Shown: positions 1-59,081 of the stretch, in pieces
Layout of the letters: the number at the start of each line of letters is the position of its first letter
Position numbering within the stretch: position 1 is the stretch's first letter
Assembly (NCBI GenBank): GCA_937867335.1
Contig: CALMKX010000369.1
Span: forward strand, 1-64,000
Direction of reading: 5' to 3'
Source of the DNA: an uncultured Acidobacteriota bacterium
GTDB lineage: Bacteria > Acidobacteriota > Thermoanaerobaculia > Multivoradales > SZUA-115
DNA length: 64,000 nucleotides
Notes under the pieces: model-generated
Seen by the model: only the letters and a program-made list of their open reading frames with translations
Databases searched by the model: none
What the model was told of the DNA's origin: nothing
Position numbers and translations under genes: made by a program

Positions 1-545
1 GCCACCGCGGCCACCGGCGCCAGCACCTCGCCTCGAGGCTCCGCTCCGGCGCCGAGCACCAGCACCGCGGGAGCCCGCTCGCATTGGCCGAGACAGGGGC
101 TGCGCTGCCAGGAAACGCCGCTGCGGCCGGCGCTACCCGCAGCTCCCAGCCGGGTTTCGAGCTCGCGGCAGAGGCCCTCGGCGCCGGCCAGCCGGCAGGC
201 GAGGTCGTCGCAGACATGAGCCACCACCGGGGGCCGCGGCTCGGTGGCGAAGAGGTGGTAGAAGGTGAGCACTCCCCAAGCCTCGGCCGGTGGCACGGAG
301 AGGCGCCGGCAGATGTACTGCAGGGCGCCCGGGCTCACCCAGCCGATGCGATCCTGCACCGCGTGGAAAGCGGGCAGAAGCTGGTCTCGGTGGCTGGCCG
401 CAGCGAGCCCTCCCACCGCCACCCGGCCATCTCGCTCGGCCACCCTGTCGCCGCCATCCCAGCCCGAGGCGGGCGGACCGAGCAGGGCGTCGACCGCGGC
501 CCGCTCCTCGGCGCTGGGTTGCTCCTTGCCCAGATGGAGATCCAC
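1..545 (-). CDS. NuoE/FdsG-like [2Fe-2S] subunit of NAD-linked formate dehydrogenase, 3' end outside window
   Basis: This is the thioredoxin-like [2Fe-2S] subunit that passes electrons between the formate dehydrogenase catalytic subunit and a NuoF-like flavoprotein reducing NAD. The frame read from a GTG at 545 gives a protein with the family signature AFHAVQDRIGWVSPGALQYI, then the four cluster cysteines as C-x4-C (VCDDLAC) and C-x3-C (CLGQC). The GTG start lies 5 bases after the formate dehydrogenase stop, with GGAGG about 10 bases upstream, so the two genes form an operon. The frame stays open to the window edge, about 181 codons; a NuoF part could follow as a fusion or as the next gene. 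The family is clear. Assignment to formate dehydrogenase rather than complex I rests on the neighbour. Confidence 0.85.
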   Translation of the reverse strand, partial: MDLHLGKEQPSAEERAAVDALLGPPASGWDGGDRVAERDGRVAVGGLAAASHRDQLLPAFHAVQDRIGWVSPGALQYICRRLSVPPAEAWGVLTFYHLFATEPRPPVVAHVCDDLACRLAGAEGLCRELETRLGAAGSAGRSGVSWQRSPCLGQCERAPAVLVLGAGAEPRGEVLAPVAAV

Positions 546-550
546 TCCGT

Positions 551-2449
551 TCAGGCCTCCAATCGCTCGACGGCGATGGCCGCCGCCTTGAACTCCGCCG
601 TGCCGCTGCGCGGATCGGTGGCATCGATGGTGAGATGGTTGGTGGCGACTTGCTCGGGGAAGTGGAAGGTCATGAAGGTGAGCCCCGGGCGCAGCCCCTC
701 GTCCACATGCACCGGCACCACCAGCTGGCCTCGGCGTGAGCGTACCCGCACCCGCTCACCTTCGCGCACACCCCAGCGCTCGGCATCTTCAGGCGAGATG
801 TCCAGGGTCTCGCCGCGCCGGGTCGGCGAGGCGTAGGCACCCGTCTGCACGCCGGTGTTGTACTCGGCCAGGCGGCGACCGGTGGTCAGGCGGATCGGGA
901 ATTCAGCATCCAGGCGGTCCACCGGCGGCTCGTCTTCCACCACATGGAAAGGCGCCCTGGGCCCCACTACCGGCCTTTCCCACAGGCGGCTGTGGAGGAA
1001 GCGCTCACCGGGATGCGCTTCGTCGTAGCAAGGCCATTGCAGGCCGCCCAGCTCCTCGAGCCGGCGATAGCTCATGCCGGCATGGATCGGGGAGAGGCTC
1101 CTGAGTTCGTCCCACACGGCCTCGGCATCCGGCCGGCCCCAATCGTGGCCCATTCGACGGGCGAGCTCGAAGAGGATCTCGAGGTCCTCGCGGGCCTCGC
1201 CGGGAGGGGCCACGGCTCGGCGTACCCGCTGCACGCGACGCTCGCTCGAGGTCACTGTGCCCTCGCTCTCGCACCAGGCCGAAGCCGCCGGCAGCACCAC
1301 ATCGGCCAGCCGGCTGGTCGCGGTCTCCACCACGTCCTGCACCACCAGGAAATCGAGCCCGCGCAGCAGCCTCTCGGAGCGATGCTGGTCCGCCTCGGAC
1401 TGCGCCGGGTTCTCGCCGATCACGTAGAGGGCACGCAGCTCGCCGCGGTCCATGGCATCGAACATCGCCGAGAGGTGCCAGCCGCGCTTGGGCGGCACCG
1501 TCACTCCCCAGGCCTGGTCGAAGCGGGCGCGCGCCGCGTCGTCTTCCACGTGCTGGAAGCCCGCCAGTCGATCCGGCAGGGCGCCCATGTCGCCGCCGCC
1601 CTGCACGTTGTTCTGGCCGCGTAGCGGGTTCAGGCCGGAACCCCAACGCCCCACATGGCCGGTGAGCAGGGCCAGGTTGATCAAAGCGAGCACGTTGTCC
1701 ACCGCGTTGTGGTGCTCGGTGATGCCGAGTGTCCAGCACAGCGTGGCGGTGCGCGCCCGGGCGTAGCAGTGAGCGAGGTCGCGGATCACCTCCACGGGAA
1801 CGCCGGTCACTTGGGAGCCGCGTTCGAGCGTCCAGGGTTCGACTCCGGCGCGATAGGCCTCGAATCCGGTGGTGGCATGCTCCACGAAATCCTGGTTCAC
1901 CAGGCCCGAGGCGATGATCTCCCGGCCCACGGTGTTGGCGAGAGCGATGTCCGTGCCGACATCGAGGCCGGCCCAGAGATGGGCCCAACGCGCCGAGCTG
2001 GTGCGGCGCGGGTCCACCGCGATCATGCGCGCACCCCGCCTCAGCCCCTTGAGCAGGTGATGGAAGAAGATCGGATGCGTTTCCCGGGCGTTCGAGCCCC
2101 AGAGGAGAATGCAATCCGTCTCCTCGATCTCCTGATAAGAGCTGGTACCACCGCCCATGCCGAAAACCGTCGCCAGACCGACGACGCTCGGCGCGTGTCA
2201 GGTACGGTTGCAGCTGTCGACGTTGTTCGAACCGATCACCGCTCGGGCGAACTTGCCGGCGACGAAGTTCACCTCGTTGGTGCTCTTCGAGCAGGAAAAC
2301 AGCCCGAAGCTACGGGGTCCGAACTGGTCGACGGTGGTGCCGAGCCCTGAAGCGACGCGGTCGAGCGCCTCTTCCCACGAAGCCGGACGAAGCTCGGCGT
2401 CACGGCGATCGCGAACCAGAGGCTGCAACAAACGATGATGGCTGGTCAT
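551..2449 (-). CDS. fdhF: Formate dehydrogenase alpha subunit, selenoprotein (in-frame TGA = Sec84), lacking the N-terminal [4Fe-4S] domain
   Basis: Molybdopterin (bis-MGD) enzyme oxidising formate to CO2. The reading frame is interrupted only by TGA at 2200-2198, exactly where FdhF enzymes carry the active-site selenocysteine: NNVDSCNRT-U-HAPSVVGL aligns with NNVDCCARV-U-HGPSVAGL of E. coli FdhF. His85 follows Sec84. The catalytic arginine sits near residue 277 in NPLRGQNNVQGGGDMGALP. A SECIS hairpin follows the TGA. With Sec the product is 632 aa and ends in the normal MopB C-terminal beta-barrel domain. It starts at ATG 2449 in the segment equivalent to just after the usual N-terminal CxxCxxxC iron-sulfur domain, which is absent; no cysteine motif lies upstream in frame before the csp terminator. 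It is followed by a NuoE-like gene. An automatic caller would split it into two ORFs or call a pseudogene. Confidence 0.9.
2168..2200 (-). promoter_or_regulatory. UGA selenocysteine codon with bacterial SECIS hairpin
   Basis: Read on the minus strand, TGA (2200-2198) is followed after 18 bases by the loop GGUCU (2179-2175). The loop is closed by a stem of seven pairs, CGUCGUC (2186-2180) with GGCGACG (2174-2168), one of them a G-U wobble. The E. coli fdhF SECIS has the same GGUCU loop at the same 18-base distance. Counting the U of UGA as 1, the bases known to matter for SelB binding (U17, G23, U24) are all present here. In E. coli U17 is bulged; here it can pair with A. Confidence 0.9.
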
Positions 2450-4112: not shown

Positions 4113-5984
4113 CTAGGAGGCAGCTTGCTGCACTTCGACCAGACGGTCGATCGCCACCTCGCCGAGCTTCTGCTGGCTGCCGTCCGGCCAGGTGATGGTC
4201 ACCGAATCCACCCGGCTCGCTTCCCCCAGCCCGAAGGTCAGCGGCAGCTCCACCTGCGACAGATAGCTGTGCGTGGGCATCACCTGCCGTCGCTGCGTGA
4301 CGCCACCTGCCACCAGCTCCACGCGGGCGCCGATCGCGGCCGAATTGGGCCCTTTGCCCTTGAGCTTCAGCCGTAGCCAGTGGTGCCCCAGGCTCTGCTG
4401 GTTCACCAGCAACACGGCCGGCCCCCCAGCCTGCGTCAGCACCACATCGAGATCCCCATCGCCGTCTACATCCGCATAGACCGAGCCTCGCCCCACCACC
4501 GGCCGGCCGAGATCTCCGGTCTCTCCAGGCGGCACCAGGACGAACGGCGGCTGCGCCTGCGGCCCGGCGTTCCAGAACAGCTGCGCGGCCTGCTCGTAGC
4601 TCTGGCTCGGATCCACCTTGGCGATCTCGCGCTCCAGATGCCCGTTCACCTGCAGCAGATCGAGCCGGCCGTCCAGGTCGTAGTCGAAGAGGAACAGCCC
4701 GAACGACAGCGCCCGCCGGCTGGGAGCGCCCACCCCCGAGCTGATCGCCTGATCCACGAAGAAATCCGGTGCCTCCTCGCGCACGTAGACCGACGTCATC
4801 TCGTTGGCGAAGTTCCCCACCAGGAAGGCCAGCCCACCGTCGTTGGCCAGGTCCCCGGCATCCGAGCCCATCGAGCCCGTGGCGTTGCCGTCCCGGTCGT
4901 AGGCCAGGCCCCAGGCCTCCCCCACCTCGGCGAACTTGCCACCGCCCAGGTTGTGGAAGAAGAACTTGCGCACCGTGTCGTTGGCCACCAGCAGATCCAT
5001 CCGCCCATCCGCGTCGGCATCCACCGGCACCAGCCCCAGGGTCTTCGCCATCGGCGCCCCGGTCGCCTTGTTCACCACCTGCACTCCCGCTTCCCCCGAA
5101 ACATCCGTGAACGTGCCATCGCCGTTGTTCCGGTACAGGCTCGGGAACGTGCCCTCGTAGTTGTTCGGCGGGCCGTAGGCTCGCCCCACCCCGGTGAGGC
5201 GATAGTCCACCGCGAAGTCGATCTTCGGCGACCACTTCACGTAGTGGCCCACCACGAGGTCGAGATCCCCGTCGCCATCCGCGTCGAAAAACGACGCGGC
5301 GGTCGACCACTGATCCGCCGAGCCCGCGACCCCGGCGGCCGCCGAAACATCCTCGAACCGGCCCTGGCGATTGCGCAACAGCCGGTTCTTGCCCACTGCC
5401 GTCAGGAGCACATCGGGCCAGCCGTCGCCGTCGTAGTCCCCCACCGCCACGCCCATGCCGTAGATCGGCACCGCCAGCCCAGCCTCGCGGGTCACCTCTC
5501 GGAAGTGCCCGTGCCCGTCGTTCTGGTAAAGCGCCGGCGTCGCGCTCGCGATGCCGTGCCCGCCGGGCCAGGCCGTGCCGTTGGCGAACAGCAGGTCAGG
5601 GTCGCCGTCGTTGTCGTAGTCGAGAAAGGCCACTCCCGAGCCCATCGACTCCGGCAACAGCTTGTCGCCGTAGGCGCCGGTGGTGTGGACGAAGCGGATC
5701 CCCGCGGCCGCCGTGCCGTCGGCGAAGCGCACCGCGGGGGGCTTGGCCTCCCGCACCACCGCCTCGGGCGCGGCTCGGGCGATCTTCTGCTCCGGCGCCG
5801 CCTCCTTCGGCCGGCGCGACCACCACCAGCCCCCACCCACCACCAGGGCGAGAGCCCCCAGCACCATCAGAGACCGCCGGAACGCCAGACCGATCACCGC
5901 ATCGTCTTCGGCGACCAGTTCCTCCGGGTCCTCCGCCTCGAGAGCCTTGCGCTCCCGCTCCTTGCTCCCCTGAGGCTCGCTCAT
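4113..5984 (-). CDS. CRTAC1-family FG-GAP/VCBS repeat protein with C-terminal ASPIC/UnbV domain, membrane-anchored
   Basis: A 623-aa protein. A charged cytoplasmic N-terminus is followed by one transmembrane helix (about residues 35-53, rich in L/V/G and ending WWW). A large beta-propeller follows, built from calcium-binding FG-GAP repeats of the form DYDNDGDPDLLF, DYDGDGWPDVLL, DADGDGDLDLVV and DVDGDGDLDVVL. The last 100 residues match the ASPIC/UnbV module (NSAAIGARVELVAGG). The propeller should lie outside the cytoplasmic membrane. The function of such proteins is not established; adhesion or complex scaffolding is a guess. The ATG overlaps the stop of the pentaheme cytochrome gene by four bases (5981-5984), so the two are translationally coupled, which suggests a shared complex. 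Confidence 0.88.
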   Translation of the reverse strand: MSEPQGSKERERKALEAEDPEELVAEDDAVIGLAFRRSLMVLGALALVVGGGWWWSRRPKEAAPEQKIARAAPEAVVREAKPPAVRFADGTAAAGIRFVHTTGAYGDKLLPESMGSGVAFLDYDNDGDPDLLFANGTAWPGGHGIASATPALYQNDGHGHFREVTREAGLAVPIYGMGVAVGDYDGDGWPDVLLTAVGKNRLLRNRQGRFEDVSAAAGVAGSADQWSTAASFFDADGDGDLDLVVGHYVKWSPKIDFAVDYRLTGVGRAYGPPNNYEGTFPSLYRNNGDGTFTDVSGEAGVQVVNKATGAPMAKTLGLVPVDADADGRMDLLVANDTVRKFFFHNLGGGKFAEVGEAWGLAYDRDGNATGSMGSDAGDLANDGGLAFLVGNFANEMTSVYVREEAPDFFVDQAISSGVGAPSRRALSFGLFLFDYDLDGRLDLLQVNGHLEREIAKVDPSQSYEQAAQLFWNAGPQAQPPFVLVPPGETGDLGRPVVGRGSVYADVDGDGDLDVVLTQAGGPAVLLVNQQSLGHHWLRLKLKGKGPNSAAIGARVELVAGGVTQRRQVMPTHSYLSQVELPLTFGLGEASRVDSVTITWPDGSQQKLGEVAIDRLVEVQQAAS

Positions 5985-8923
5985 CGGTGCCCCCCTCCCT
6001 CCTTGCTGGTGACGAGCGGCGCGGAGCCGAGCTCCGCCGTGGCGACCGGCAGGGGCGGCGCCACCTCGTACCGCGCCGCCCGCCGGCTAGGCCCGGCATC
6101 GGCGAGCTCATAGGCGCCGGTACGCTCGAGATCGTAGATCACGATCGCGTCGGCCGCGTGATCTGCCGCCGGGTCTGCCGCCCGCGCGATCGCGATCGCG
6201 CGATCCCGGGCGTTGTCGTCCGGCTTGTAGGTCTGGTACAGCGCAAGGTGCTTCTCCGCCTCCTCCTTCTTGCCCAGGAGCCGGTCGATCTGCGCCAGAT
6301 TGTAGTGGGCCGTGGCGTCCTCCGGCTCGAGGCCTAGAGTGCGCTCGAACTGCGCCGCGGCCTCGGCCAGCAACTCGTCCCGTCGGGCCTTGCGCGCTGC
6401 TCCGCTCTCCAGCTTGGCGCGCTCGAAGAGCGTCTCGCCGAGCTCGTTCAGCACCCGGTAATCCTGCGAGAAGTCGAAGCCCCGCTGGCGCGTTTCGGCG
6501 TCGTCGAGGGTCAGGATGCCCTTGAAATCGCCGATCGCCTGGTCCAGGAAGCCGTTCTGCTTGTTGGTCAGCCCGGTGAGCCAGGCCACCGTCCACGAGG
6601 GCGCCGGCGGGTTGAAGCTCGCCGCCCGCTTCAAGGCGGCGATCGCCTGATCCTGCACCGTGCCCTGCGCCAGGTACACCCGCGCCAGGTTGAGCGGCCC
6701 ATCCGGCCGGCCGAGCGCCTCCACGCGGGCGAAAGCCTGCTCCGCTCCTTTGAGCTCGCCCTTGGTCTTGCCTCCCTTGAGCAGGAGCCCGATGCCGTAG
6801 TCGTTCCAGCGCTGCCATTCGTCGGCGATCGGCGAGGTCTGCTGGGCGACGATCCCTGCGCCTCCAACCACCGGCAGCGTCAGGCGATCCACTCCCAGAG
6901 TGAGGATCGGCAGGTCGTTCACCCGCTCCTGGCCGTAGACGTACTTCATGTAGAGGGTGTCGAACTTCCGGTACTGCAGCCGCGCCTCGATGGTGATCGG
7001 CTCGGTCACGCCCTTGGGTACCGTCAGCAGGTAGTGGAGGGTGTCCGCCGCTCCCGGCGGAATCTGGTGGTTGTAGAGCGGAGTGAAGATGTCCTGGGCA
7101 TTGCGGCGATCGATGCGATGGCCGTCTCGGTCGAGCATGTAGACGTTGGCGAAATGCGACCAGGGGTCCACCGAGTTGGCCGGCCCGAGGCCGCCGCTCC
7201 TGCCGATCACGCGATCGCCGGACTTCACCACCACATCGAGCCAGAGCTCATTCGAGTCCGTCGTCCCCTGGGTGAGATGGTGGCCCATCCGCATCGTGCG
7301 CACCACCGTCTCGAGGATGTAACTCTGTCCCGGCACCAGGGCCGGCAGCTCGGGCCGCAGCGGCGCCACCAGCTCGCCTTCTAGATCTCCCCCTTTGCGC
7401 AGGCCGAAGAGATCCACCCTCGCCGTCTTCTCGTTGAACTTGCGGTGCTTCTCGTTCACCCACGCAGGCAGGTCCAGCAGCTGCGGCAGGGCCGTGTTGG
7501 CGCTCGGGAACTGATGATCGTGGATCTTCAGGACGCCCGAGCCGTCGAAGTTCCGGGCCGCGAACTGATTCGACTCGGACAGCGTCATATGGCAGACGGA
7601 GCAGTTCGAGAACGCCTTGTCCGGGTAGTAGAAGCTCTGCGCGCCGTGGCCGGAGGCCCCGGAAAGGAGGTAAGTGTCGTAGTGATTCTGGCCCCGCAGC
7701 CACTTGTAGCGGTTGAGCTCCTCGGGCAGATGCACCTTGTGGCACGCGCCGCAGAACTCGGCCGTCTTGTGCAGGGGTTTCAAGTAGGTGCGCTTGTGGA
7801 ACTCCGGCTTGGCCTTGATCAGCTGCTCGTTGATCCAGGCCAGAGCCCGATTCGACGAGCCGGTGAAGGGATATTGCACCGGCTCCTCGAGGGTGAAATC
7901 CGCGTTGCCGCGCGGGCTGTTCACGTGGGTGATCGCGTGGCACACGCTGCAGGTGATGCCCGCCTGGCCCGCCGGCTGCTGCACCGCGGATTTCGGATCG
8001 TCGAAACGCGGATCGTCGAATTTCCCCGAGAAGAACACCACCGGATCGTGGCAGCCGGCACAGAAGCGCGAGGCCTGGCTCTTGCCGTCGTTCTTGCGTG
8101 CGGCCTCGCGGGTCTGGTTCACCGAGAAAGCGTAGGGCGGGTTGTTGAACGAGCTGAAGCGGTGCATGGACACGCTCCAGCTCTTGTGGCTGTCTTCGTG
8201 GCACTTCTTGCAGTATTGATCGTTGTTGAGCACCGCTTCCGGGATGAAGTCCCCGGTGGCCGTTCGTGCCAGGGAAGGGAAGAAGTACTTCTCGCCGGAA
8301 GCCGGCCCCACCTGGTTCCAGCGCCGCGGGTCCTGCGCCTGCCAGATCACCAGCAGGCCGGCGAAAACACCGGCCACCGCGGCCCAGCGCAAACCCACCT
8401 GCCAGCGGATCTTGCGCCCGGCCAACCGGTGGAGCACGAACAGCCAGGCCGCGGCGAGCGGAGCCAGCACGTGCACCCAATAGGCGATGCCGCGCACCGT
8501 GGGGTCCTTCACCACGATCACGCCTTCTAGCCGGGTGAGCACCAGCCCGGAGGCGAGCAACACCAGGGCCGCCGCGAACAGGGCGTAGCCGGCGTACACG
8601 GCGCGCCGGTTCGGGCGGTTGTGGGCGTTCTTGATGTGAGCGATACCGAAGCCGAGAACCGGCAGGATGATCAGAGCGCCCAGGGCGAGGTGTACCAGGA
8701 ACATGTTGAGGTAGAACCAGTTCTGGTAAACCCTGCCGGTGGCCCACTCGAGCAGCGAGACTCCCACCAGGTAGGTGGAATTCACCGCCAGCAGGGCGAA
8801 CAGGCCGAGCACCACGAAGAGGACCTTTTTCAGCCGTGGTCCCACGGCCGGAACGTATTTCCGCAGCCGTGGCGCGGCTGGAGCGGGCGCTGATTCTTCG
8901 GGGCTTCTCGGCGGCTGGTCCAT
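5981..8923 (-). CDS. Membrane-anchored pentaheme cytochrome c (cytochrome c554-like) with C-terminal TPR region
   Basis: Start at ATG 8923, with GAGGAGGAC 8 bases upstream, gives 980 aa. Residues 30-195 hold about four to five transmembrane helices with histidines at helix positions (for example FLVHLALG and WLFVLHRL) that could bind heme b. A periplasmic part follows with five heme c sites: CKKCH (238), CAGCH (288), CSVCH (325), CGACH (391) and CSVCH (441). The spacing and the WSVSMHRF segment resemble the cytochrome c554 family. A beta-rich region and TPR-like repeats occupy the last 300 residues. It is coupled to the CRTAC1-family gene downstream; the TPR gene lies 133 bases upstream. A role in quinone-linked electron transfer is inferred. 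A paralogous pentaheme region lies at 50907-53687. Confidence 0.88.
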   Translation of the reverse strand: MDQPPRSPEESAPAPAAPRLRKYVPAVGPRLKKVLFVVLGLFALLAVNSTYLVGVSLLEWATGRVYQNWFYLNMFLVHLALGALIILPVLGFGIAHIKNAHNRPNRRAVYAGYALFAAALVLLASGLVLTRLEGVIVVKDPTVRGIAYWVHVLAPLAAAWLFVLHRLAGRKIRWQVGLRWAAVAGVFAGLLVIWQAQDPRRWNQVGPASGEKYFFPSLARTATGDFIPEAVLNNDQYCKKCHEDSHKSWSVSMHRFSSFNNPPYAFSVNQTREAARKNDGKSQASRFCAGCHDPVVFFSGKFDDPRFDDPKSAVQQPAGQAGITCSVCHAITHVNSPRGNADFTLEEPVQYPFTGSSNRALAWINEQLIKAKPEFHKRTYLKPLHKTAEFCGACHKVHLPEELNRYKWLRGQNHYDTYLLSGASGHGAQSFYYPDKAFSNCSVCHMTLSESNQFAARNFDGSGVLKIHDHQFPSANTALPQLLDLPAWVNEKHRKFNEKTARVDLFGLRKGGDLEGELVAPLRPELPALVPGQSYILETVVRTMRMGHHLTQGTTDSNELWLDVVVKSGDRVIGRSGGLGPANSVDPWSHFANVYMLDRDGHRIDRRNAQDIFTPLYNHQIPPGAADTLHYLLTVPKGVTEPITIEARLQYRKFDTLYMKYVYGQERVNDLPILTLGVDRLTLPVVGGAGIVAQQTSPIADEWQRWNDYGIGLLLKGGKTKGELKGAEQAFARVEALGRPDGPLNLARVYLAQGTVQDQAIAALKRAASFNPPAPSWTVAWLTGLTNKQNGFLDQAIGDFKGILTLDDAETRQRGFDFSQDYRVLNELGETLFERAKLESGAARKARRDELLAEAAAQFERTLGLEPEDATAHYNLAQIDRLLGKKEEAEKHLALYQTYKPDDNARDRAIAIARAADPAADHAADAIVIYDLERTGAYELADAGPSRRAARYEVAPPLPVATAELGSAPLVTSKEGGGHR

Positions 8924-9056
8924 GCGGGCGTCCTCCTCGCACTCAGTGCCCATCGGCTCAGGAATCCGGACAGCAGGGTAACCAAAAAGCCGCCATAACT
9001 TCTATGAGCAGAAGCCCGAGCGGGGGCCGGGCCGGCGATGGGCCGGGGCCGGGCTG

Positions 9057-21840: not shown

Positions 21841-22200
21841 CTAGCGCGGAGTCCGGCCCCGCCAGCGGCCGCCACGGATTCTGGGCAGGCCTGGATCTTC
21901 GCTGCCGGGGAGGAAGTACGCCCAGGCCCTCGGCGCGCGCTCGAGGGCGACCGGCCGGCGCTCGAAGAGGGTGGGGTGCTCCTCGAACTCGTCGAGCCTC
22001 AGCAGCAGTGGAGGGCTCACCACGTAGAGCTCGCCGTGAACCCGGCCAGCGCCTGCTTCGACCAACGCCGGGTAGGGCCCGCAGTCGAGCAGGGCGTAGC
22101 CCTTTCGAGTGAGGGCGGCGCCCACCCGGTGGCTGCCGTCGAGCAGACGATGGTTGCGCTCTCCCTCGAGCAGGGTGCCGTAGACGAAAAGCAAGGGCAT
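21841..22200 (-). CDS. Gamma-glutamylcyclotransferase family protein
   Basis: A 119-aa protein of the AIG2/GGCT fold. The N-terminus LFVYGTLLEGERNHRLL carries the YGTL substrate-binding loop, and the general acid glutamate is in RLDEFEEHPTLFERRPV. The length is normal. Family members release 5-oxoproline from gamma-glutamyl peptides or amines, but many bacterial copies are uncharacterised. The stop at 21841 and the divergent oxidoreductase start (22241) leave it alone; only 40 bases separate the two starts, so their promoters must overlap. Confidence 0.85.
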   Translation of the reverse strand: MPLLFVYGTLLEGERNHRLLDGSHRVGAALTRKGYALLDCGPYPALVEAGAGRVHGELYVVSPPLLLRLDEFEEHPTLFERRPVALERAPRAWAYFLPGSEDPGLPRIRGGRWRGRTPR

Positions 22201-22240
22201 GGTGGGTCTCGTTCGGCCGAACCATTATCATCTACCCACC

Positions 22241-24322
22241 ATGGCGGAGACGAACGGCACCACGCACCGCACCTACTGCCCGCTCGATTGCCCGGACTGC
22301 TGCAGCCTCGAGGTGAAAGTCGAAGGCGGCAAGGTGGTGAAGCTCGACGGCGACCAGCGCAACCCGGTCACGCAGGGCTTCATCTGCACCAAGGTGCGCC
22401 ACTTCCCGCAGCGGCTCTATGGCCCCAAACGCTTGCTCCGCCCCGGCGTGCGCGATGGCGCCAAGGGCGAGGGCAAGTTCCGCCCCGTCTCCTGGGGGGA
22501 GGCCCTCGACCTGGTGGCCGGCAAGCTGAGGGAAACCGTCGATCGCCACGGCGGGGAAGCCATCCTGCCCTACTCCTACGGCGGCGGCAACGGCGTGCTC
22601 AGCCAGGATGCCTACGACGCTCGGCTGTTCCGCCGCCTGGGGGCTCTGAACCTGGCGCCCACGGTCTGCGCGGCAGCCACCTCGCGAGCCGCCGAAGCGA
22701 TGTATGGGCAATTTCCCGGCGTGGCCTACCAAGACGTGGCCGAAGCCCGTCTGGTGGTGGTTTGGGGAGCCAACCCTTCCGTCTCGAGCATCCACCTGGT
22801 GCCCTATGTGTTGGAGGCCAAGCGGCGCGGCGCCCGGCTGGTGGTGATCGACCCGCGACGCATCGCCCTCGCCAAACAGGCGGATCTCCACCTGGCCGTC
22901 AACCCGGGGACCGACCTCGCGGTCGCTTTGTCGCTCGTCCGCTGGCTGTTCGCTTCCGGCCGGGCCGACCGCCGCTTCCTCACCGAGCATGCCGACGGCG
23001 CCGAGGAGCTCGAGCGCCGGGCCGAGCCCTGGACGTTCGAAGCCGCTGCGAGCGTGGCCGGCGTGCCGGCTTCCGATCTCGAGACCTTCGCGCGCTGGTA
23101 CGCCGAGAGCTCCCCGGCCCTGATCCGCTGCGGCTGGGGCCCCGAACGCAACCGCAACGGCGGCTCCGCGGTGGCCGCCATCCTCACGCTGCCGGCGGTG
23201 GCCGGCAAGTTCGGCGTCCGGGGCGGCGGCTACATGCTGTCGAACGCCTCCGCGTGGAACCTGAGCACCGAGGGGGCGGTGGCCGCCCCCCCCACGGACA
23301 CGCCTACGCTCAACATGAACCGGCTCGGCAGAGCTCTGCTGGGCGAGACCAAGCTCGAGATCCGCCTGCTCTTCGTGTTCAACTCCAACCCCCTCGCCAC
23401 GCTTCCCGAGCAGGAGAAGGTGCGGGCGGGCCTGCGCCGCGAGGACCTCTTCACGGTGGTCTTCGACCCGGTACTCACCGACACGGCCCGCTACGCCGAC
23501 GTGGTGCTGCCGGCCACGACCTTCCTCGAACAGGCCGAGCTCTCCCGTGGCTATGGCGCTTACGTGGCCCAACGCAGCCGGCCGGTGATCGCCCCCGTGG
23601 GCGAGTCCCGATCGAACTTCGAGGTCTTCCGGGACCTGGTGCGCCAACTGGGCCTCGGTCGCCCCGGCGACCCGGAGGATCCCGAAGAGTGGGTGGCGGC
23701 CGCCCTGGGTGCGGATGGGAGAGCCGAGGAGCTCGCTCCGCTGCTCGCCGAGCAGGGCATCGGCCCGGCGCGCTTTCCCCGCCCCGTGCAGATGGTGGAT
23801 GTTCTGCCGGCGACCGCCAACGGGCGCATCCAGCTCTGCTCCGAGGATCTCGACCAGGAGACCGGCGGCTGGCTCTATCACTTCCGGCCCAACCCAGAAG
23901 AGCGGGCGGGCTCGCTGACGCTGATCTCGCCGGCCACCTCGAAAGCGGTCTGCTCCACCCTGGGCGAGCTCGACGGCAAGGTCGCGAGCCTGGAGCTCCA
24001 TCCGGACGACGCCGCCGCCCGCGGCCTCGAGCCCGGGGACATCGTGCGGGTATGGAACTACCTGGGCGAGGTTCGCTGCCCGCTGGCCCTCTCACGCGAC
24101 CTGCGGCCGGGAGTGGCCTTCCTGCCCAAGGCGCTCTGGAGCCACCACACCCTGAACGGCGTCACCGCCAACGCCCTGGCCGCCAACCATCCCACGGACT
24201 TCGCCGAGGGAGCCACCTTCAACGATGCCCGGGTGGAAGTGGAGCTGGTGGAGCGTCCTACCAGGCCGGTCGCCGGGGAGAGCCAAGAGCCTGCGTTCGA
24301 GCTCCTAGCCGGCGGCGGGTAG
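22241..24322 (+). CDS. Molybdopterin-dependent oxidoreductase, DMSO reductase family
   Basis: Start at ATG 22241 gives 693 aa. The N-terminal [4Fe-4S] site is present as CPLDCPDCCSLEV followed by FICTKVRHF. The MopB body has typical segments: PVSWGEALDLVAGKL, VVWGANPSVSS, RRGARLVVIDPRR and YADVVLPATTFLEQAELSRG. The C-terminal domain has ELHPDDAAARGLEPGDIVRV. The presumed metal-ligand region is LAPTVCAAATSRAAEAMYG. The protein appears soluble and has no signal peptide, so it should be cytoplasmic. Close relatives are widely annotated but biochemically undefined; no dedicated partner subunit lies nearby. The 3' end overlaps the M16-like gene on the other strand by 18 bases. Confidence 0.88.
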   Translation: MAETNGTTHRTYCPLDCPDCCSLEVKVEGGKVVKLDGDQRNPVTQGFICTKVRHFPQRLYGPKRLLRPGVRDGAKGEGKFRPVSWGEALDLVAGKLRETVDRHGGEAILPYSYGGGNGVLSQDAYDARLFRRLGALNLAPTVCAAATSRAAEAMYGQFPGVAYQDVAEARLVVVWGANPSVSSIHLVPYVLEAKRRGARLVVIDPRRIALAKQADLHLAVNPGTDLAVALSLVRWLFASGRADRRFLTEHADGAEELERRAEPWTFEAAASVAGVPASDLETFARWYAESSPALIRCGWGPERNRNGGSAVAAILTLPAVAGKFGVRGGGYMLSNASAWNLSTEGAVAAPPTDTPTLNMNRLGRALLGETKLEIRLLFVFNSNPLATLPEQEKVRAGLRREDLFTVVFDPVLTDTARYADVVLPATTFLEQAELSRGYGAYVAQRSRPVIAPVGESRSNFEVFRDLVRQLGLGRPGDPEDPEEWVAAALGADGRAEELAPLLAEQGIGPARFPRPVQMVDVLPATANGRIQLCSEDLDQETGGWLYHFRPNPEERAGSLTLISPATSKAVCSTLGELDGKVASLELHPDDAAARGLEPGDIVRVWNYLGEVRCPLALSRDLRPGVAFLPKALWSHHTLNGVTANALAANHPTDFAEGATFNDARVEVELVERPTRPVAGESQEPAFELLAGGG

Positions 24323-25552
24323 GCCGATCGTCACCTTGAGCTCTTGGGGCCGGATGTGCCGGCGGGCGAGCTCCTCGAGGCTCGGGCGGTCGAGCTCCTG
24401 CAGGCGCTTCGCCCGCAGCTCGAGGTCGTCCTCGGGAAGGCCGTAGAACAGCGCCTCGACCAACAGATCCGCGTATTGCCGGGCGGTCTCTCGCCGGAAC
24501 GGCTCGCGGCCCAGCAGATAGGCGCGGGCTTCGTTCACCTCGTCATCCCCAAGGCCCTGCTCGACCAGCCGCTCGAGCTCCTCTCTCACCCCTCGCTCCG
24601 CCTGCGCCGCGGTTTCCGGCGAAGTGCCCACGTAGGCGATCAGCCGGCCCGGGTCGAGCCCCGCACCCAGAGTGGTCTGAGCGAAGGTCGAGTAGGCCAG
24701 CCCTTCTTGCTCGCGGATTCGCCCGGGGATACGCCCGGCGAGGCCGGCTCCGGCGCCGAGGATCACTGCGAGGAGCTCGAGGGGCAGGTAGTCGGGATGG
24801 CGGCGGTCCACCGTGAGATGGCCGAGGTAGAGATGGGCCTGCTCGCCGGTGCGGATGGGCACCACCTGGCGGCTGCCGAGCCCCACGGGCCGGGGCGGCT
24901 CGACGAACGGCAGCGACGGAGCCGCCACCGGTAGGGCGAACAGCTCTTCGATGCGCCGGCGGACGGCGTCCGGCTCGAGCTCCCCCGTCACCACCACGAT
25001 CGCGCCTTCCGCTACCGAGCTCTGGTGAAAGGCCCGACAAGCCTCGGCATCGACCAGCGCGAGCCCCTCTGGAGTGCCCAGCACCGGGCGCTGGCGGGGA
25101 TGAGGATGGTAGAGCTGGGCGCTGAAGCGCCAGGCGGTGGCCACTTCGGGTTGATCCCCCAGGCTCGCGAGCTCGGCGGTCGCCTGCCGCGCCAGCCAAT
25201 CGCAGCGGTCGGCCGGGAAAGTGGGCTCGAGAGCGATCTCCGCGGCCCAGGCGAGCGCCCGGTCGAGGTCCGAGGCCAGCGCTTCGAGCCCCAAGGTCAG
25301 GCTCTCGGCGGTGCCGGAAGTCTGCAGGATCATCCCCCGGCCCTCGAGATCCTCCGCCAGCTGCCTCCAGCCGCGGCGGCGGGTCCCTTCAGCGAGCATC
25401 CGGCCGGTGACGAGAGCCTGGCCGGGAATCGTCTCGCAACGGGCTCCTCCGGGGAAGAGCACGCGGACCGAGACGATCGGCATGCCCTCGACGCGGCGGA
25501 CGGCCGAGCGGAGTCGGGGCTTTTCGGGCGGAGCGCTTGCAGCGAGGCTCAA
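24305..25552 (-). CDS. M16-family peptidase-like protein without zinc site (R/Y partner subunit)
   Basis: A 415-aa M16 (insulinase/PqqL-type) protein. The N-terminal half lacks the HxxEH zinc motif: where it is expected there is ALVTGRMLAEGTRRR. The C-terminal half keeps IREQEGLAYSTFAQT, the arginine/tyrosine loop that completes the active site of the partner subunit. Such inactive subunits pair with a catalytic M16 protein to form a heterodimeric peptide-degrading clamp. Its ATG overlaps the stop of the catalytic gene by four bases. It runs convergently into the molybdopterin oxidoreductase gene. Confidence 0.9.
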   Translation of the reverse strand: MSLAASAPPEKPRLRSAVRRVEGMPIVSVRVLFPGGARCETIPGQALVTGRMLAEGTRRRGWRQLAEDLEGRGMILQTSGTAESLTLGLEALASDLDRALAWAAEIALEPTFPADRCDWLARQATAELASLGDQPEVATAWRFSAQLYHPHPRQRPVLGTPEGLALVDAEACRAFHQSSVAEGAIVVVTGELEPDAVRRRIEELFALPVAAPSLPFVEPPRPVGLGSRQVVPIRTGEQAHLYLGHLTVDRRHPDYLPLELLAVILGAGAGLAGRIPGRIREQEGLAYSTFAQTTLGAGLDPGRLIAYVGTSPETAAQAERGVREELERLVEQGLGDDEVNEARAYLLGREPFRRETARQYADLLVEALFYGLPEDDLELRAKRLQELDRPSLEELARRHIRPQELKVTIGLPAAG

Positions 25553-26892
25553 GCCTCGGCCTCCGGCTCCTCGCCCGCGGGCAAGGACCAGCCGAGAACC
25601 CCGCCCCGCTCCGGATCGAGGTAGCGCCGGGCTGCCCGATTGAGCGAGTCGGCGTCCAGCCGAGCCAGGGCGCCGAGCGTCCGCTCGGGATGCCTCAAGT
25701 CGAAGAGCGTCAGGGCCGCGCCGAGGGTGATGGCCTGCTGGTGCACCCTTTCGTGGAGGAAGGTCCAGTCCGCGAGCAGGATCTGGCGAGCCCGCTCGAT
25801 CTCCTCGGCCGAGAAGCCTTCGCTCCTGATCCGGGCGAGCTCGCCCAGCAGGGCGGCTTCGGCGGCGGCCGGCTCGACGCCGGGCACCAGTTCCGCGGCG
25901 ATCTGGATATGGCCCGGATCGAGGGACTCTCCCAGGTCACAGCTCACCCAGCTGGCGAGCTGCCCTTCCTCCACCATGGCCCGATGGAGCGGGCTCGCCT
26001 TGCCGCCGTCGAGGGCGCCCAGGGTCAGCCGCAGGGCCGTGTGATCCGGGTGGGTGGCGGGCGGCGCCGGCAGGGCGAGAAGCACGCGGGCCACTTCCCC
26101 GGCCCGCCGGCTAACGCGCACCATCTCCCGCGGCTCGGGCCTCGAAGCCGGCGGCATGCGCACGATCCCGCGGCCTCCCGGTAGGTCGGCAAAGTACACC
26201 TCGGCGGCGGCAAAGGCTTCCTCTCCCACATCCCCCGCCACGATCAGCACGGCGTTCTCCGGCCCGTACCAGGCGCGGTGGAAAGCTGCGAGCTCGGCCG
26301 CGCCGATGCCGGCCAGAGATTCGCGAGTCCCGAGCACCGGCGAGCCATAAGGATGGGGACGATAGAGAGCCGCCGTGACCTCCATCTCGAGGGCGTCCCA
26401 GGGCTCGCTCTCACACATCGAGAGCTCCTCGAGGATCACCTGCCGTTCGCTCGTCACCTGCGCCGGATCCAAAGTCAGCCCGCGCATGCGATCGGCTTCG
26501 ATCTCCAAGGCATGCGTCCAGCGATCGGCCGCGAAGTCGAAGTAGTAGCCGGTCAGGTCGTGGCTGGTGAAGGCATTGTTCACGCCACCGAGAGCCTGGG
26601 TTCGGCGGTCGATCTCGCCGGCGATGAAGCGCTCGGAGCCCTTGAACATCATGTGCTCGAGAAAGTGGGCGGCTCCCGAGAGCTCGGGGGTTTCATCCCG
26701 CGCGCCGACCCGGTAGAAGAGCGCCGAGGTCACCACCGGGGCCGTGCGCTGCTCCACCACGCAGACCGTCATGCCGTTGCGCAGCACCCGGTGGCGGATC
26801 TTGCCCGGGAGGGCGGGAACAGCGAGCGGTGGCAGTGCTCCCACGCTCTCCGAGACGGCGCAATCAGCGGGAACCCGGCTCCTGATTCTCAT
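25549..26892 (-). CDS. M16-family zinc metallopeptidase, catalytic subunit
   Basis: A 447-aa zinc peptidase. The inverted zinc motif is AAHFLEHMMFKG (His76, Glu79, His80), with the distal glutamate expected about 70-80 residues later in ASERQVILEEL-type sequence, seen here as TSERQVILEELSM. Together with the next gene it should form a heterodimer that degrades peptides, either cytoplasmic or periplasmic; no clear signal peptide is visible in the first 40 residues. A good promoter candidate lies about 60 bases upstream (26950). The four-base overlap with the second subunit favours equal expression. Confidence 0.92.
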   Translation of the reverse strand: MRIRSRVPADCAVSESVGALPPLAVPALPGKIRHRVLRNGMTVCVVEQRTAPVVTSALFYRVGARDETPELSGAAHFLEHMMFKGSERFIAGEIDRRTQALGGVNNAFTSHDLTGYYFDFAADRWTHALEIEADRMRGLTLDPAQVTSERQVILEELSMCESEPWDALEMEVTAALYRPHPYGSPVLGTRESLAGIGAAELAAFHRAWYGPENAVLIVAGDVGEEAFAAAEVYFADLPGGRGIVRMPPASRPEPREMVRVSRRAGEVARVLLALPAPPATHPDHTALRLTLGALDGGKASPLHRAMVEEGQLASWVSCDLGESLDPGHIQIAAELVPGVEPAAAEAALLGELARIRSEGFSAEEIERARQILLADWTFLHERVHQQAITLGAALTLFDLRHPERTLGALARLDADSLNRAARRYLDPERGGVLGWSLPAGEEPEAEA

Positions 26893-54893: not shown

Positions 54894-56074
54894 TCGAGCG
54901 TCTCTTCCTGGTAGGCCTGCCCTACCTCGCTCTGGCGAGTTGGCTCCTCCTGCCCGCAGGCCGCGGCCTCCTCGCCGCCGAAAAGCCCACCGCTCCGGGG
55001 CTCGCCGCCCTCGCCGGCGGCTGGCTCTGGCGGCTCGCCCTCGGAGTGGTGCTCGGCGCCCACCTGGTGGCGTTTCTCGCCCCGCAAGCTCTGACGGCGC
55101 TCCACCGCGCGGGTGCCACGGTGGTGCTCGAAGGGGTGGGAGGCACAGCCGCCTTGCTCTGCCTGGTGGGCGTCTGGGGGCTCTGGCGCGGCCGAGCCGG
55201 CAGGCCCTGGGGACTCGCGGACAACCTGCTCCTCGCGCTGGTCACCCTCAACCTGCTCTCCGGGCTGGGAGTCGCCCTGCGCTACCACTGGGGCTCGCTC
55301 TGGTACGGCGACACGGTCCTGCCCTATCTGGTTTCTCTGGCCCGCCTCAAGCCGGAGCTGGCGCAGATCGCCGAGCTGCCGCTCGCGGCCCGACTGCACC
55401 TGGCAAGCGGCTTCCTGGCCCTGGCGCTCGCTCCCGCAAGCTCGCTCGGCGCTCTACTCGCCTTGCCCTGGTTCCGGCTGCGCCAGCGCCCGGCCCTGGT
55501 GCGTCGCCTCGCGGCCACCGCCGCCGCCTGCGTGCTCCTCGCTCTCGGAGCGCTCGCCACCAGCGCCATGATGAACCTCGGCTACAGCCAGGGCTACGAG
55601 CCGGCGCAGCCGATCGCCTTCTCGCACAAACTCCACGCCGGCACCCATCAGATCCCCTGCCTGTACTGCCACTTCGGGGCCGAGCGCTCTCGGCATGCCG
55701 GGATTCCGCCCGCGAACGTCTGCATGAACTGCCACGCGCGGCTCAAGGTGGCAACTCCCGAAATCGCCAAGCTGAAAGAAGCGGTGGTCCAGGATCGCTC
55801 GATCGCCTGGGTGAAGATCCACAATCTGCCGGACTTCGTCTACTTCAACCACAGCCAGCATGTGGTCGTGGCCGGGCTCACCTGCCAGCGCTGCCACGGC
55901 CCGGTGGAGAACCTGGAGCGGGTACGCCAGGAAGCGCCACTGTCCATGGGCTGGTGTGTCGACTGCCACAGGAGCGAGGGCGTCGTGCCCCGTCATGGGG
56001 CCCAAACGCCGGCCGCGGATGGCAAGCCTCCGCGCGGGATGGGCGGCCTCGACTGCGGCAAATGCCACTACTGA
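54890..56074 (+). CDS. actA: ActA-type pentaheme cytochrome fused to NarI-like membrane domain
   Basis: A 394-aa protein. The first 215 residues hold about five transmembrane helices with the NarI pattern: GVVLGAHLVAFLAPQ (compare NarI GILGIFVGHFFGMLTP), LVTLNLLSGLGVALRYH and RLHLASGFLALALAPASSL (compare RLHLVLGMTLFLLFP). Its histidines could bind heme b. The C-terminal half is the ActA pentaheme cytochrome of Alternative Complex III: IAFSHKLHAGTHQIPCLYCH, RHAGIPPANVCMNCH, CQRCH, CVDCH and CGKCHY at the end. ActA normally has one membrane anchor, so the NarI-like module is an addition. It overlaps the diheme gene and precedes actB by 25 bases. Confidence 0.88.
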   Translation: MIERLFLVGLPYLALASWLLLPAGRGLLAAEKPTAPGLAALAGGWLWRLALGVVLGAHLVAFLAPQALTALHRAGATVVLEGVGGTAALLCLVGVWGLWRGRAGRPWGLADNLLLALVTLNLLSGLGVALRYHWGSLWYGDTVLPYLVSLARLKPELAQIAELPLAARLHLASGFLALALAPASSLGALLALPWFRLRQRPALVRRLAATAAACVLLALGALATSAMMNLGYSQGYEPAQPIAFSHKLHAGTHQIPCLYCHFGAERSRHAGIPPANVCMNCHARLKVATPEIAKLKEAVVQDRSIAWVKIHNLPDFVYFNHSQHVVVAGLTCQRCHGPVENLERVRQEAPLSMGWCVDCHRSEGVVPRHGAQTPAADGKPPRGMGGLDCGKCHY

Positions 56075-56099
56075 CGGACGGGACGGGGAGGGTTCTACG

Positions 56100-59081
56100 A
56101 TGAGCAACGAGCATCCAGACGGGCCGGAGCTTCTCGAGGCGGAGCCGAGAGGGAGCCAGGAGCCCGAGTTCCCCGGTGGCCAGCGGCTCTGGCAATGGCT
56201 TGGCGAGAGCGAGGGCGAGACCCGTCGCGACTTCCTCAAGGCCATGGGCTTCAGCTTGGCCGCCGCTTCCGCCGCCGGCTGCCGCATTCCCGAGCGCCGG
56301 GCTCTGCCCCTCGCCGCCCAGCCCGAGGGCTTCCTCGCCGGGGCCGAGAACTGGTACGCCACCACCTGCGGCGGCTGCAGCACCGGCTGCGGCCTGACCG
56401 TGAAGGTGCGCGACGGCCGGCCGATCAAGATCGAAGGCAACCCGGACTCGCTGCTTTCCCGCGGTGGCACCTGCGCCGCGGGCCAGGCCACGGTGCTCTC
56501 CCTTTACGACGACGAGCGCTTCGCCGGGCCGCTTCTCGCCGGCAAGGCCGCCGCCTGGACGGAGGTGGATGCCGCCGTCGCCGCCGGCTTCGAGGCGGCC
56601 TCGAAGGCCGGCAAGAAGCTGGTGTGGCTGGGCCGGGAGCGACCCGGCCCCGCGGGCGAGCGCCTGCTTCGGGACTGGCAGAGTCGCTTCCCGGGAGCGG
56701 AACATCGAGTGTACGAGCCGCTGTCCGCAAGCGCCGCGCGGACGGCGAACGAGCAGAGCTTCGGGCTAGCACGGATCCCCCGGCCCCGCTTCGACCGATG
56801 CCGGCTGGTGGTGGGCCTCGAGGCCGACTTCCTCGGCACCGGGCTGTCGCCGGTGGAGCACGCCCGGGCCTACGCCGAGAGGCGGCGGCCGGAGCTCGGC
56901 GCCGGGAGGCTACGCCATCTCCAGGTCGAATCCGCCTTCTCGCTCACCGGCGCGAGCGCCGACCGCCGCTGGCCCGTGCATCCCTCGGAGCTCGGCCTCA
57001 CGGCCCTGGCTCTCTTGGCCGGAGTCTCCAGGCTGGCCGGCGTCGCCCTCACCTTGCCGGGCGAGATCGCCGCCGAGGTCCAGCGCTTCGCCCCTGTCGC
57101 CGAGGAGCTCTGGGCCAGGCGGGGAGCCGCCCTGGTGCTGTGCGGAGACACCGACCCGGATCTCCATCGCGTGGTCAACCGCCTCAACAGCCTGCTCGGC
57201 GGCCTGGGCGCCACCCTCGACTTCGACCGCCCCTCCTACCAGAGCGAGGGCGACGACCGAGCCTTCGCCTCCCTGGTGGCCGAGATGGAGCGCGGCGAGG
57301 TAGGGGCTCTGCTCCTCGAGGGCGTGAACCCGGCCTACGACTCGCCGCTCGGCGAGCGCTTCGTCGCGGCGCTCGAGCGAGTTCCGCTCACCGTCTCCTT
57401 CGCCGATCGCCCGGACGAGACCACCGAGAAAGTCCAGGTGGTGGCTCCGGACACGCACTTCCTCGAATCCTGGGGGGACCACGAGCCGGTCGGAGGCTGC
57501 TACCAGCTGAGCCAGCCGATGCTCGAGCCGCTGTTCGCCGCTCGGCACGCCGGCGAGAGCCTGCTCGCCTGGAGCGGCCGGCCAACGCGCTGGTACGACT
57601 ACCTGCGGGAGACCTGGAAAGAGCAGGTCTTCCCCCGGCAGAGCCGCTTTCCCGGCTTCGACGAGTTCTGGGATCATGCCCTCGAGCAGGGAGGACTCGA
57701 GCTGCCTCCCCTGGCCGGTGAGGGCGCCACCCTCGCCGATCGCCTCTCCCCGGCCGAGCTCGAAGCCTCGGTGGCCGGTCTCCTCGCTCGGGGCCGGGCC
57801 GGGGCCGCTGCCCGCAGCCAAGGGCGGCTCGAGCTGCGGCTGGTCGAGTCGATCGCGCTCGGCGACGGCCGCCTGGCCAACAATCCGTGGCTCCAGGAGC
57901 TGCCGGACCCGACCACCAAGATCACCTGGGGAAACGCGCTCGCGATCTCTCCCTTCCTGGCGGCGAGGGAGGGCCTGGAAGACGGCGAGGTGGTGCGCCT
58001 CACCGGCCCGACGGTGGCCACCCCGCTCGAGGTTCCGGTGGTGGCCGTTCCCGGCCTCGCCGCCAGCACCGTCACGCTGGCGGTGGGCTACGGCCGGCGG
58101 CGGGCGGGCAAAGCCGGCACCGGGGTGGGCGTGAACGCCTTCCCCCTGGCGCCCCTCGAAGACGGGCTGGTGCGGACCTCGCTCGCCGGCGTGGCCCTCG
58201 AGAAGACCGGCCGCCGAGAAGTGCTGGCCCGCACCCAGCAGCATTTCTCGGCCGAAGGCCGGCCGATCGCCCGCGAAATCGGCCTGGCCGAGCTCGAGGC
58301 CGCTCCTGAAGGCGAAGCCGAGGAAGCGCCGGAGTCCCTCTGGCCTGAGCACGAGAAGCCGGAGCATTTCTGGGCAATGACCATCGACCTCGGCTCCTGC
58401 ACCGGCTGCTCGGCCTGCGTGGTGGCTTGCATGGCCGAGAACAACGTGCCCGTGGTGGGGCCGGACGAAGTGCGCCGCGGCCGCGAGATGCACTGGCTGC
58501 GGGTGGACCGCTACTACCAGGGCGACGCCGACGCCCCCGAAGTGATGCACCAGCCGATGATGTGCCAGCACTGCGATCACGCACCGTGCGAAACCGTCTG
58601 CCCGGTGCTCGCCACGGTGCACAGCTCGGACGGCTTGAACCAGCAGGTCTACAACCGCTGCATCGGCACCCGCTACTGCGCCAACAACTGCCCGTACAAG
58701 GTTCGCCGTTTCAACTGGTTCCGCTACGCCGACAACGACCGCTTCGACTACCACCAGAACAGCCCCCTCGGCCGGATGGTGCTCAACCCGGACGTGGTGG
58801 TGCGCTCCCGCGGTGTGATGGAGAAGTGCTCGCTGTGCATCCAGCGCATCCAGGCCGGCAAGCTCGAGGCCAAGCGCCGGGGCCGGCCCCTCGCCGACGG
58901 CGCCATCAGCACCGCTTGCCAGCAAGCCTGCCCCTCGCAGGCCATCCACTTCGGAGACCTGCGAGACGACCAAAGCACGGTGGCGGCCAAGCAGAAGGAC
59001 CGCCGCTTCTATCGCGTTCTCGCCGATCTCGGCACTCGCCCCGGCGTGGGCTACCTCGCGCGGGTGCGGGTCACGGAGTAA
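56100..59081 (+). CDS. actB: ActB: fused molybdopterin-like and iron-sulfur subunit of Alternative Complex III
   Basis: ATG 56100, with GGGGAGGG 7 bases upstream, gives 993 aa. The N-terminus has a Tat-type signal, TRRDFLKAMGFSLAAASAAG. The MopB-like half has GGCSTGCGLTVKVRDGRPIK and ends with LSPAELEASVAGLLARGRAG; in ACIII this domain lacks the molybdenum cofactor. The C-terminal ferredoxin half carries cluster cysteines: CTGCSACVVACMAENNVPVV, CQHCDHAPCETVCPVLATVH, CIGTRYCANNCPYKVRRFNW and CSLCIQRIQ followed by ACQQACPSQAIHF. It faces the periplasm and conducts electrons between the membrane subunits and hemes. Confidence 0.95.
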   Translation: MSNEHPDGPELLEAEPRGSQEPEFPGGQRLWQWLGESEGETRRDFLKAMGFSLAAASAAGCRIPERRALPLAAQPEGFLAGAENWYATTCGGCSTGCGLTVKVRDGRPIKIEGNPDSLLSRGGTCAAGQATVLSLYDDERFAGPLLAGKAAAWTEVDAAVAAGFEAASKAGKKLVWLGRERPGPAGERLLRDWQSRFPGAEHRVYEPLSASAARTANEQSFGLARIPRPRFDRCRLVVGLEADFLGTGLSPVEHARAYAERRRPELGAGRLRHLQVESAFSLTGASADRRWPVHPSELGLTALALLAGVSRLAGVALTLPGEIAAEVQRFAPVAEELWARRGAALVLCGDTDPDLHRVVNRLNSLLGGLGATLDFDRPSYQSEGDDRAFASLVAEMERGEVGALLLEGVNPAYDSPLGERFVAALERVPLTVSFADRPDETTEKVQVVAPDTHFLESWGDHEPVGGCYQLSQPMLEPLFAARHAGESLLAWSGRPTRWYDYLRETWKEQVFPRQSRFPGFDEFWDHALEQGGLELPPLAGEGATLADRLSPAELEASVAGLLARGRAGAAARSQGRLELRLVESIALGDGRLANNPWLQELPDPTTKITWGNALAISPFLAAREGLEDGEVVRLTGPTVATPLEVPVVAVPGLAASTVTLAVGYGRRRAGKAGTGVGVNAFPLAPLEDGLVRTSLAGVALEKTGRREVLARTQQHFSAEGRPIAREIGLAELEAAPEGEAEEAPESLWPEHEKPEHFWAMTIDLGSCTGCSACVVACMAENNVPVVGPDEVRRGREMHWLRVDRYYQGDADAPEVMHQPMMCQHCDHAPCETVCPVLATVHSSDGLNQQVYNRCIGTRYCANNCPYKVRRFNWFRYADNDRFDYHQNSPLGRMVLNPDVVVRSRGVMEKCSLCIQRIQAGKLEAKRRGRPLADGAISTACQQACPSQAIHFGDLRDDQSTVAAKQKDRRFYRVLADLGTRPGVGYLARVRVTE

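Follow-up and report, generated by a model that had tools for sequence, protein, structure and literature searches.

A probable split formate dehydrogenase of the FdsABG type, with selenocysteine at UGA 84 and its proximal Fe4S4 domain encoded by a separate gene

The window, a stretch of 64,000 nucleotides from an uncultured bacterium that the initial annotation, made from the letters alone, had rightly taken for an acidobacterium, carries on its minus strand the beginning of a three-gene operon. The features are as follows.

551..2449 (-): formate dehydrogenase (FDH) catalytic chain, 632 aa, with a predicted selenocysteine (Sec) as residue 84; covers positions 49-672 of TIGR01591 and residues 304-931 of Rhodobacter capsulatus FdsA
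2198..2200 (-): TGA predicted to be read as selenocysteine; TGA in 80/80 named and 30/30 complete Acidobacteriota homologues
2168..2186 (-): putative SECIS hairpin, a 7-bp stem with pairs 15-33 to 21-27 (U of UGA = 1) and the loop GGUCU at 2179-2175; conserved synonymous sites and a sub-threshold SECIS_2 match
1..545 (-): N-terminal part of gene 2, the NuoE-like thioredoxin-fold [2Fe-2S] domain of a NuoE-NuoF fusion; PF01257 match and translation

Elsewhere, the window encodes a second, complete molybdopterin oxidoreductase of 707 aa, which includes an Fe4S4 domain (22199-24319, plus strand). A protein of 1073 aa containing Molybdop_Fe4S4 and 4Fe-4S domains (55860-59078, plus strand) presumably resembles ActB of alternative complex III, which suggests aerobic respiration. 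A 990-aa cytochrome c554-like protein with a C-terminal TPR region (5984-8953, minus strand) adjoins an ASPIC/UnbV FG-GAP protein (4116-5984).

The first gene of the operon runs from an ATG at 2449 to a terminal TGA at 553-551, with an in-frame TGA at 2200-2198 as codon 84. Domain searches identify the joined protein as a molybdopterin oxidoreductase (PF00384 and PF01568), and its nearest solved structures are all formate dehydrogenases: the Methanospirillum complex FDH, HDCR FdhF, an F420-linked FDH, Escherichia coli FDH-H and R. capsulatus FdsA. In the alignment residue U84 coincides with the Sec of E. coli FDH-H, with the catalytic His directly after it, the formate-binding Arg is kept as R277 within PLRGQNNVQG, and the predicted structure (pLDDT 87) superimposes on FDH-H and FdsA with TM scores of 0.93-0.94. 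The active-site elements of an FDH alpha subunit, namely Sec/Cys-His, Arg and the bis-MGD domains, are all present. The chain alone nonetheless scores 638.1 bits against TIGR01591 (Fdh-alpha), below the curated cut-off of 666.25. The first 48 positions of the model are absent from it and are located in the FeS protein of the operon instead; no PF04879 match, the proximal Fe4S4 domain, was found in the domain search of the window chain, which starts just where, in other FDHs, the Fe4S4 domain stops. Thus the initial annotation was correct in proposing a Sec-containing FDH with its TGA at the catalytic Sec position of FdhF, and the alignment with FdhF matches at the catalytic site, but it overlooked that the chain is incomplete and that the proximal Fe4S4 domain resides in a separate gene.

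The operon encodes the catalytic chain, a NuoE-NuoF fusion and a NuoG/HoxU-like FeS protein, in that order. Gene 2 begins with a GTG codon 5 bases past the FDH stop and is cut by the end of the window's contig (C369); contig C110 carries its remainder (L066, about 6903-5605) as well as the third gene, which in the window genome shares a GTGA overlap with gene 2. A sequence overlap between C110 and C369 was sought and none was found, so that the evidence for placing them side by side comes from orthologues and complementary coverage. The end of C110 (L066, 7026-6904) encodes about 40 protein-kinase-like residues in frame with NuoF, probably a chimeric contig end and hence an assembly artefact. 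The operon has the NuoE- and NuoF-like subunits of FdsABG systems, but not the single FdsA chain in which the NuoG-like and catalytic parts are joined.

The missing domain is found in the third protein, which combines 2Fe-2S and 4Fe-4S domains with a C-terminal Molybdop_Fe4S4 domain. TIGR01591 is divided between the two chains, with positions 1-49 at the C-terminal end of the FeS protein (an orthologue's protein was used here) and positions 49-672 in the window protein. Similarly, the FeS protein of the window genome itself matches residues 18-303 of R. capsulatus FdsA, while the window protein matches residues 304-931 of the same chain. The four Fe4S4 cysteines (253, 256, 260 and 288), the other cluster cysteines and Lys290 are invariant in 27 FeS proteins. 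Judged from alignment through FdsA, Lys290 corresponds to Lys44 of E. coli FDH-H, a residue with a reported stabilising effect on both the cluster and the active structure (PMC12176258). AlphaFold gave a low-quality model of the FeS protein (pLDDT 66.5), which was left out of the analysis.

The operon thus very probably encodes a split, NAD+-linked formate dehydrogenase of the FdsABG type, with Sec at UGA 84 and the proximal Fe4S4 domain in a separate FeS protein; docking, NAD+ activity and direction are predicted from sequence. The enzyme would be cytosolic and Mo- or W-dependent. SelB and tRNA-Sec would read UGA 84 as selenocysteine by way of the downstream hairpin, and the Sec would act as a metal ligand in the bis-MGD pocket held by the catalytic chain, which lacks a proximal [4Fe-4S] domain. 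By homology to FdsABG (PMC7171172), formate would be oxidised at the Sec-ligated Mo/W-bis-MGD. Electrons would leave the metal for the proximal cluster, located in the other chain, and travel on through two [4Fe-4S] clusters and one [2Fe-2S] cluster in the HoxU/NuoG-like part to the NuoE/NuoF FMN and finally to NAD+. Since the proximal cluster and its lysine sit in the other polypeptide, the catalytic chain and the FeS protein would have to dock.

The same split complex could serve chiefly as a CO2 reductase, or use NADP+ or another acceptor, a possible but unlikely variant. FDHs are reversible and cofactor choice is not readable from the sequence evidence, yet the NuoEF-type diaphorase and the alternative-complex-III-like gene of the window fit, indirectly, respiratory formate oxidation.

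Homologues were collected in a scan that took one genome per species and used peptide patterns leaving out the Sec codon, and the best 80 loci (the named homologues) were kept. Of the named loci, 65 extend more than 6 kb downstream; at 60 of these, across phyla, both partner genes follow on the same strand and the FeS protein carries the Fe4S4 motif. In the fetched stretch of the other five, a partner gene or both are absent, or the FeS protein is incomplete. This association, the invariant Fe4S4 cysteines and lysine, and the fact that both proteins tile one FdsA with no gap make it improbable that the catalytic chain dispenses with a proximal cluster, on its own or together with different partners, while the Fe4S4 domain of the FeS protein has another role, even though the catalytic chain is predicted to fold well by itself.

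Far less credible is an ordinary full-length Sec-FDH whose missing domain is explained by a misplaced start, faulty assembly or a pseudogene. The window genome is indeed a fragmented draft with chimeric contig ends, but the start is identical in all orthologues, none of the 80 named catalytic chains (best 80 loci) contains the Fe4S4 motif, none of the split-clade homologues has it in the in-frame sequence upstream, and the domain is found elsewhere in the operon. The split arrangement is the preferred reading.

The predicted selenocysteine codon is highly conserved. All 80 named homologues, from eight phyla, have TGA at the codon-84 site (best 80 loci of the scan), and among 396 sampled Acidobacteriota genomes all 30 complete split-type homologues have a single TGA at the Sec site. 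By identity, the Acidobacteriota homologues in these 396 genomes form two sets separated by a gap. The first, with at least 65% identity, comprises the 30 complete sequences and one partial sequence listed without a stop. The second, with at most 48% identity, comprises long FdsA-type chains, mostly with TGA and two without a stop. A Cys form of the split clade was found neither among the best 80 named loci nor among the homologues from the 396 Acidobacteriota genomes; the split form is exclusively Sec in all sampled loci. This conservation of TGA (80/80 and 30/30) excludes a pseudogene as well as the sequencing error that the initial annotation had named as one thing that would count against it. 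A conserved UGA at a redox position is characteristic of bacterial selenoprotein genes, and UGA 84 is accordingly expected, from sequence, to be decoded as selenocysteine.

Downstream of the TGA, the loop GGUCU occupies positions 22-26 (U of UGA = 1), 18 bases past the codon, and U17, G23 and U24 are present, exactly as first described. As an isolated 22-nt element the hairpin forms a 7-bp stem and a 5-nt loop at -10.6 kcal/mol, a value reached by 7 of 200 shuffles, whereas within 41-44 nt of context around the TGA alternative folds beat it. The bacterial SECIS_2 model of Rfam gives a full-length match (2205-2145) of 14.4 bits, below its cut-off of 70. Structure alone is thus weak evidence, because other folds win in context and the match is sub-threshold. 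The earlier label of an E. coli-type SECIS holds for loop and spacing; the bulged U17 of E. coli is not supported, since U17 faces A31 in 66 of 89 hairpin regions and G31 in 22, and can pair with either in the drawn hairpin.

More telling is codon choice. The loop Gly codon is GGT in 87/89 hairpin regions, compared with 9.2% of Gly codons elsewhere in the same genes; CTG occurs in 89/89 (43% elsewhere in the same genes), the stem Val codon GTC in 88/89 (47% elsewhere) and the stem Ala codon GCG in 85/89 (42% of Ala codons elsewhere). With synonymous codons drawn from the genes' own usage, the whole hairpin with GGUCU would be expected in about 3 of the 89 regions and is observed in 86, counts that are not independent because the sequences share descent. 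Stem covariation beyond column composition was not detected in the 89 regions (139 of 500 column shuffles were equally good), and the SECIS evidence therefore consists of conservation at synonymous sites. A hairpin with conserved loop G and U is in place just downstream of the UGA, as bacterial SECIS elements require, although SECIS_2 itself stays sub-threshold. Two Rokubacteria-titled homologues (L072 and L073) keep the TGA and stem with a GGGCU loop in place of GGUCU, which may be readable by their own SelB.

The machinery for Sec insertion, selA, selB, selC and selD, had been predicted for this organism, and all four genes are present in the window genome (G000), a fragmented draft that is 97% complete. 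A tRNA-Sec (selC) with anticodon UCA scores 69 bits with Rfam RF01852, though ARAGORN missed it; SelA scores 523 bits, and SelD, with a catalytic Cys, scores 257 bits. SelB is in two parts at the ends of contigs C71 and C299. On C71, SelB runs into unrelated sequence close to the contig end, and SelD (L049, G000:C2, around 24946-25869) forms the C-terminal part of a long frame in which a pyridine-nucleotide oxidoreductase-like part precedes it. FdhD, which FDH maturation requires, is also encoded. SelA occurs in 57 of 59 sampled genomes (the window genome and relatives of the same order), nearly all of which have a strong tRNA-Sec. At several Chloroflexota loci, selA, selB, selD or tRNA-Sec lies within the same 18 kb as a homologous split FDH. 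Against this background the UGA can hardly be a true stop or a mutated Cys codon in a dead gene: the in-frame TGA and a hairpin outcompeted by other folds in longer context speak for it, and TGA in about 110 homologues, strong synonymous-site conservation, complete Sec machinery and the lack of a Cys form in the sets searched speak against it.

The initial annotation called selenoproteins little described in this group, but they are not notably unexpected there. A 2006 survey gives three families and four selenoproteins for Acidobacteria (PMC1794560), and an acidobacterial isolate is listed with three selenoprotein genes (PMC12013277). Distant MopB frames with one in-frame TGA each in two relatives (G014:C44:14707-16080 and G042:C141:8486-8902) are possibly further selenoproteins.

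In a tree of 80 split and 6 FdsA-type chains, the two kinds are fully separated (support 100), with the split clade spanning eight named phyla. The window protein clusters with three Acidobacteriota (support 99) inside a mixed-phylum set. Some transfer between phyla is likely, a reading kept short of a firm claim because bins and titles may be wrong; among plasmid records, only FDHs less than 60% identical were found. The operon probably represents a widespread, exclusively Sec, NAD+-linked FDH clade of at least eight phyla, whose catalytic chain receives the proximal [4Fe-4S] cluster and the adjacent lysine in trans, so that the active-site region is built from two polypeptides.

Sec-containing FDHs and selenoproteins in Acidobacteria are already known and are not new in themselves. 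An FDH whose Fe4S4 domain is separated from the remainder was not found described in the literature searched (preprints and most subscription papers lay outside it) or among solved structures. A 2025 study describes the [4Fe-4S] cluster that adjoins the Mo site within the catalytic subunit as ubiquitous in Mo-FDHs and the neighbouring lysine as strictly conserved (PMC12176258). The split clade offers a natural in-trans system for testing the roles of the proximal cluster and lysine in CO2/formate conversion, and possibly a way of wiring such enzymes with exchangeable relay subunits. One cultured member is Aquisphaera insulae JC669 (L076). Automatic annotation halts at the UGA and reads the gene as two fragments; in common soil phyla, members of the family are therefore likely to be recorded, wrongly, as truncated MopB proteins, and formate use and selenium need there may consequently be under-counted.

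The closest known system is the NAD+-dependent FdsABG(D) of R. capsulatus (6tg9; PMC7171172), with the same modules and predicted electron path: a catalytic domain, a proximal Fe4S4 domain, HoxU/NuoG-like clusters and a NuoE and NuoF diaphorase. R. capsulatus FdsA is a single 958-aa chain with Cys386, whereas the split enzyme is cut at 303/304 into two genes and has a Sec ligand; moreover, its NuoE and NuoF are fused, its catalytic gene comes first, and no His-Cys3 cluster motif was seen by eye in its FeS protein. The W-FDH1 of Methylorubrum extorquens (7vw6, 7e5z) shares the NuoE-NuoF type of beta subunit (572 aa) and the FdsA-type catalytic module, but has a single-chain alpha subunit. E. 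coli FDH-H (FdhF; 1aa6) shares the Sec-His active site and a GGUCU-loop SECIS at equal spacing, and is 37% identical to the catalytic chain in the fold alignment, with a TM of about 0.9; its Fe4S4 domain and Lys44, however, belong to that one chain, and it lacks diaphorase partners of this kind. FdsA-type Sec-FDHs of the same Acidobacteriota order (e.g., L029 and L036) have the TGA and a similar hairpin, but are 41-48% identical, with one long chain, the Fe4S4 domain in frame and a separate clade. Splitting as such has a precedent, since the FdsA homologue of Methanothermobacter wolfeii has its C-terminus as a subunit of its own (PMC7171172).
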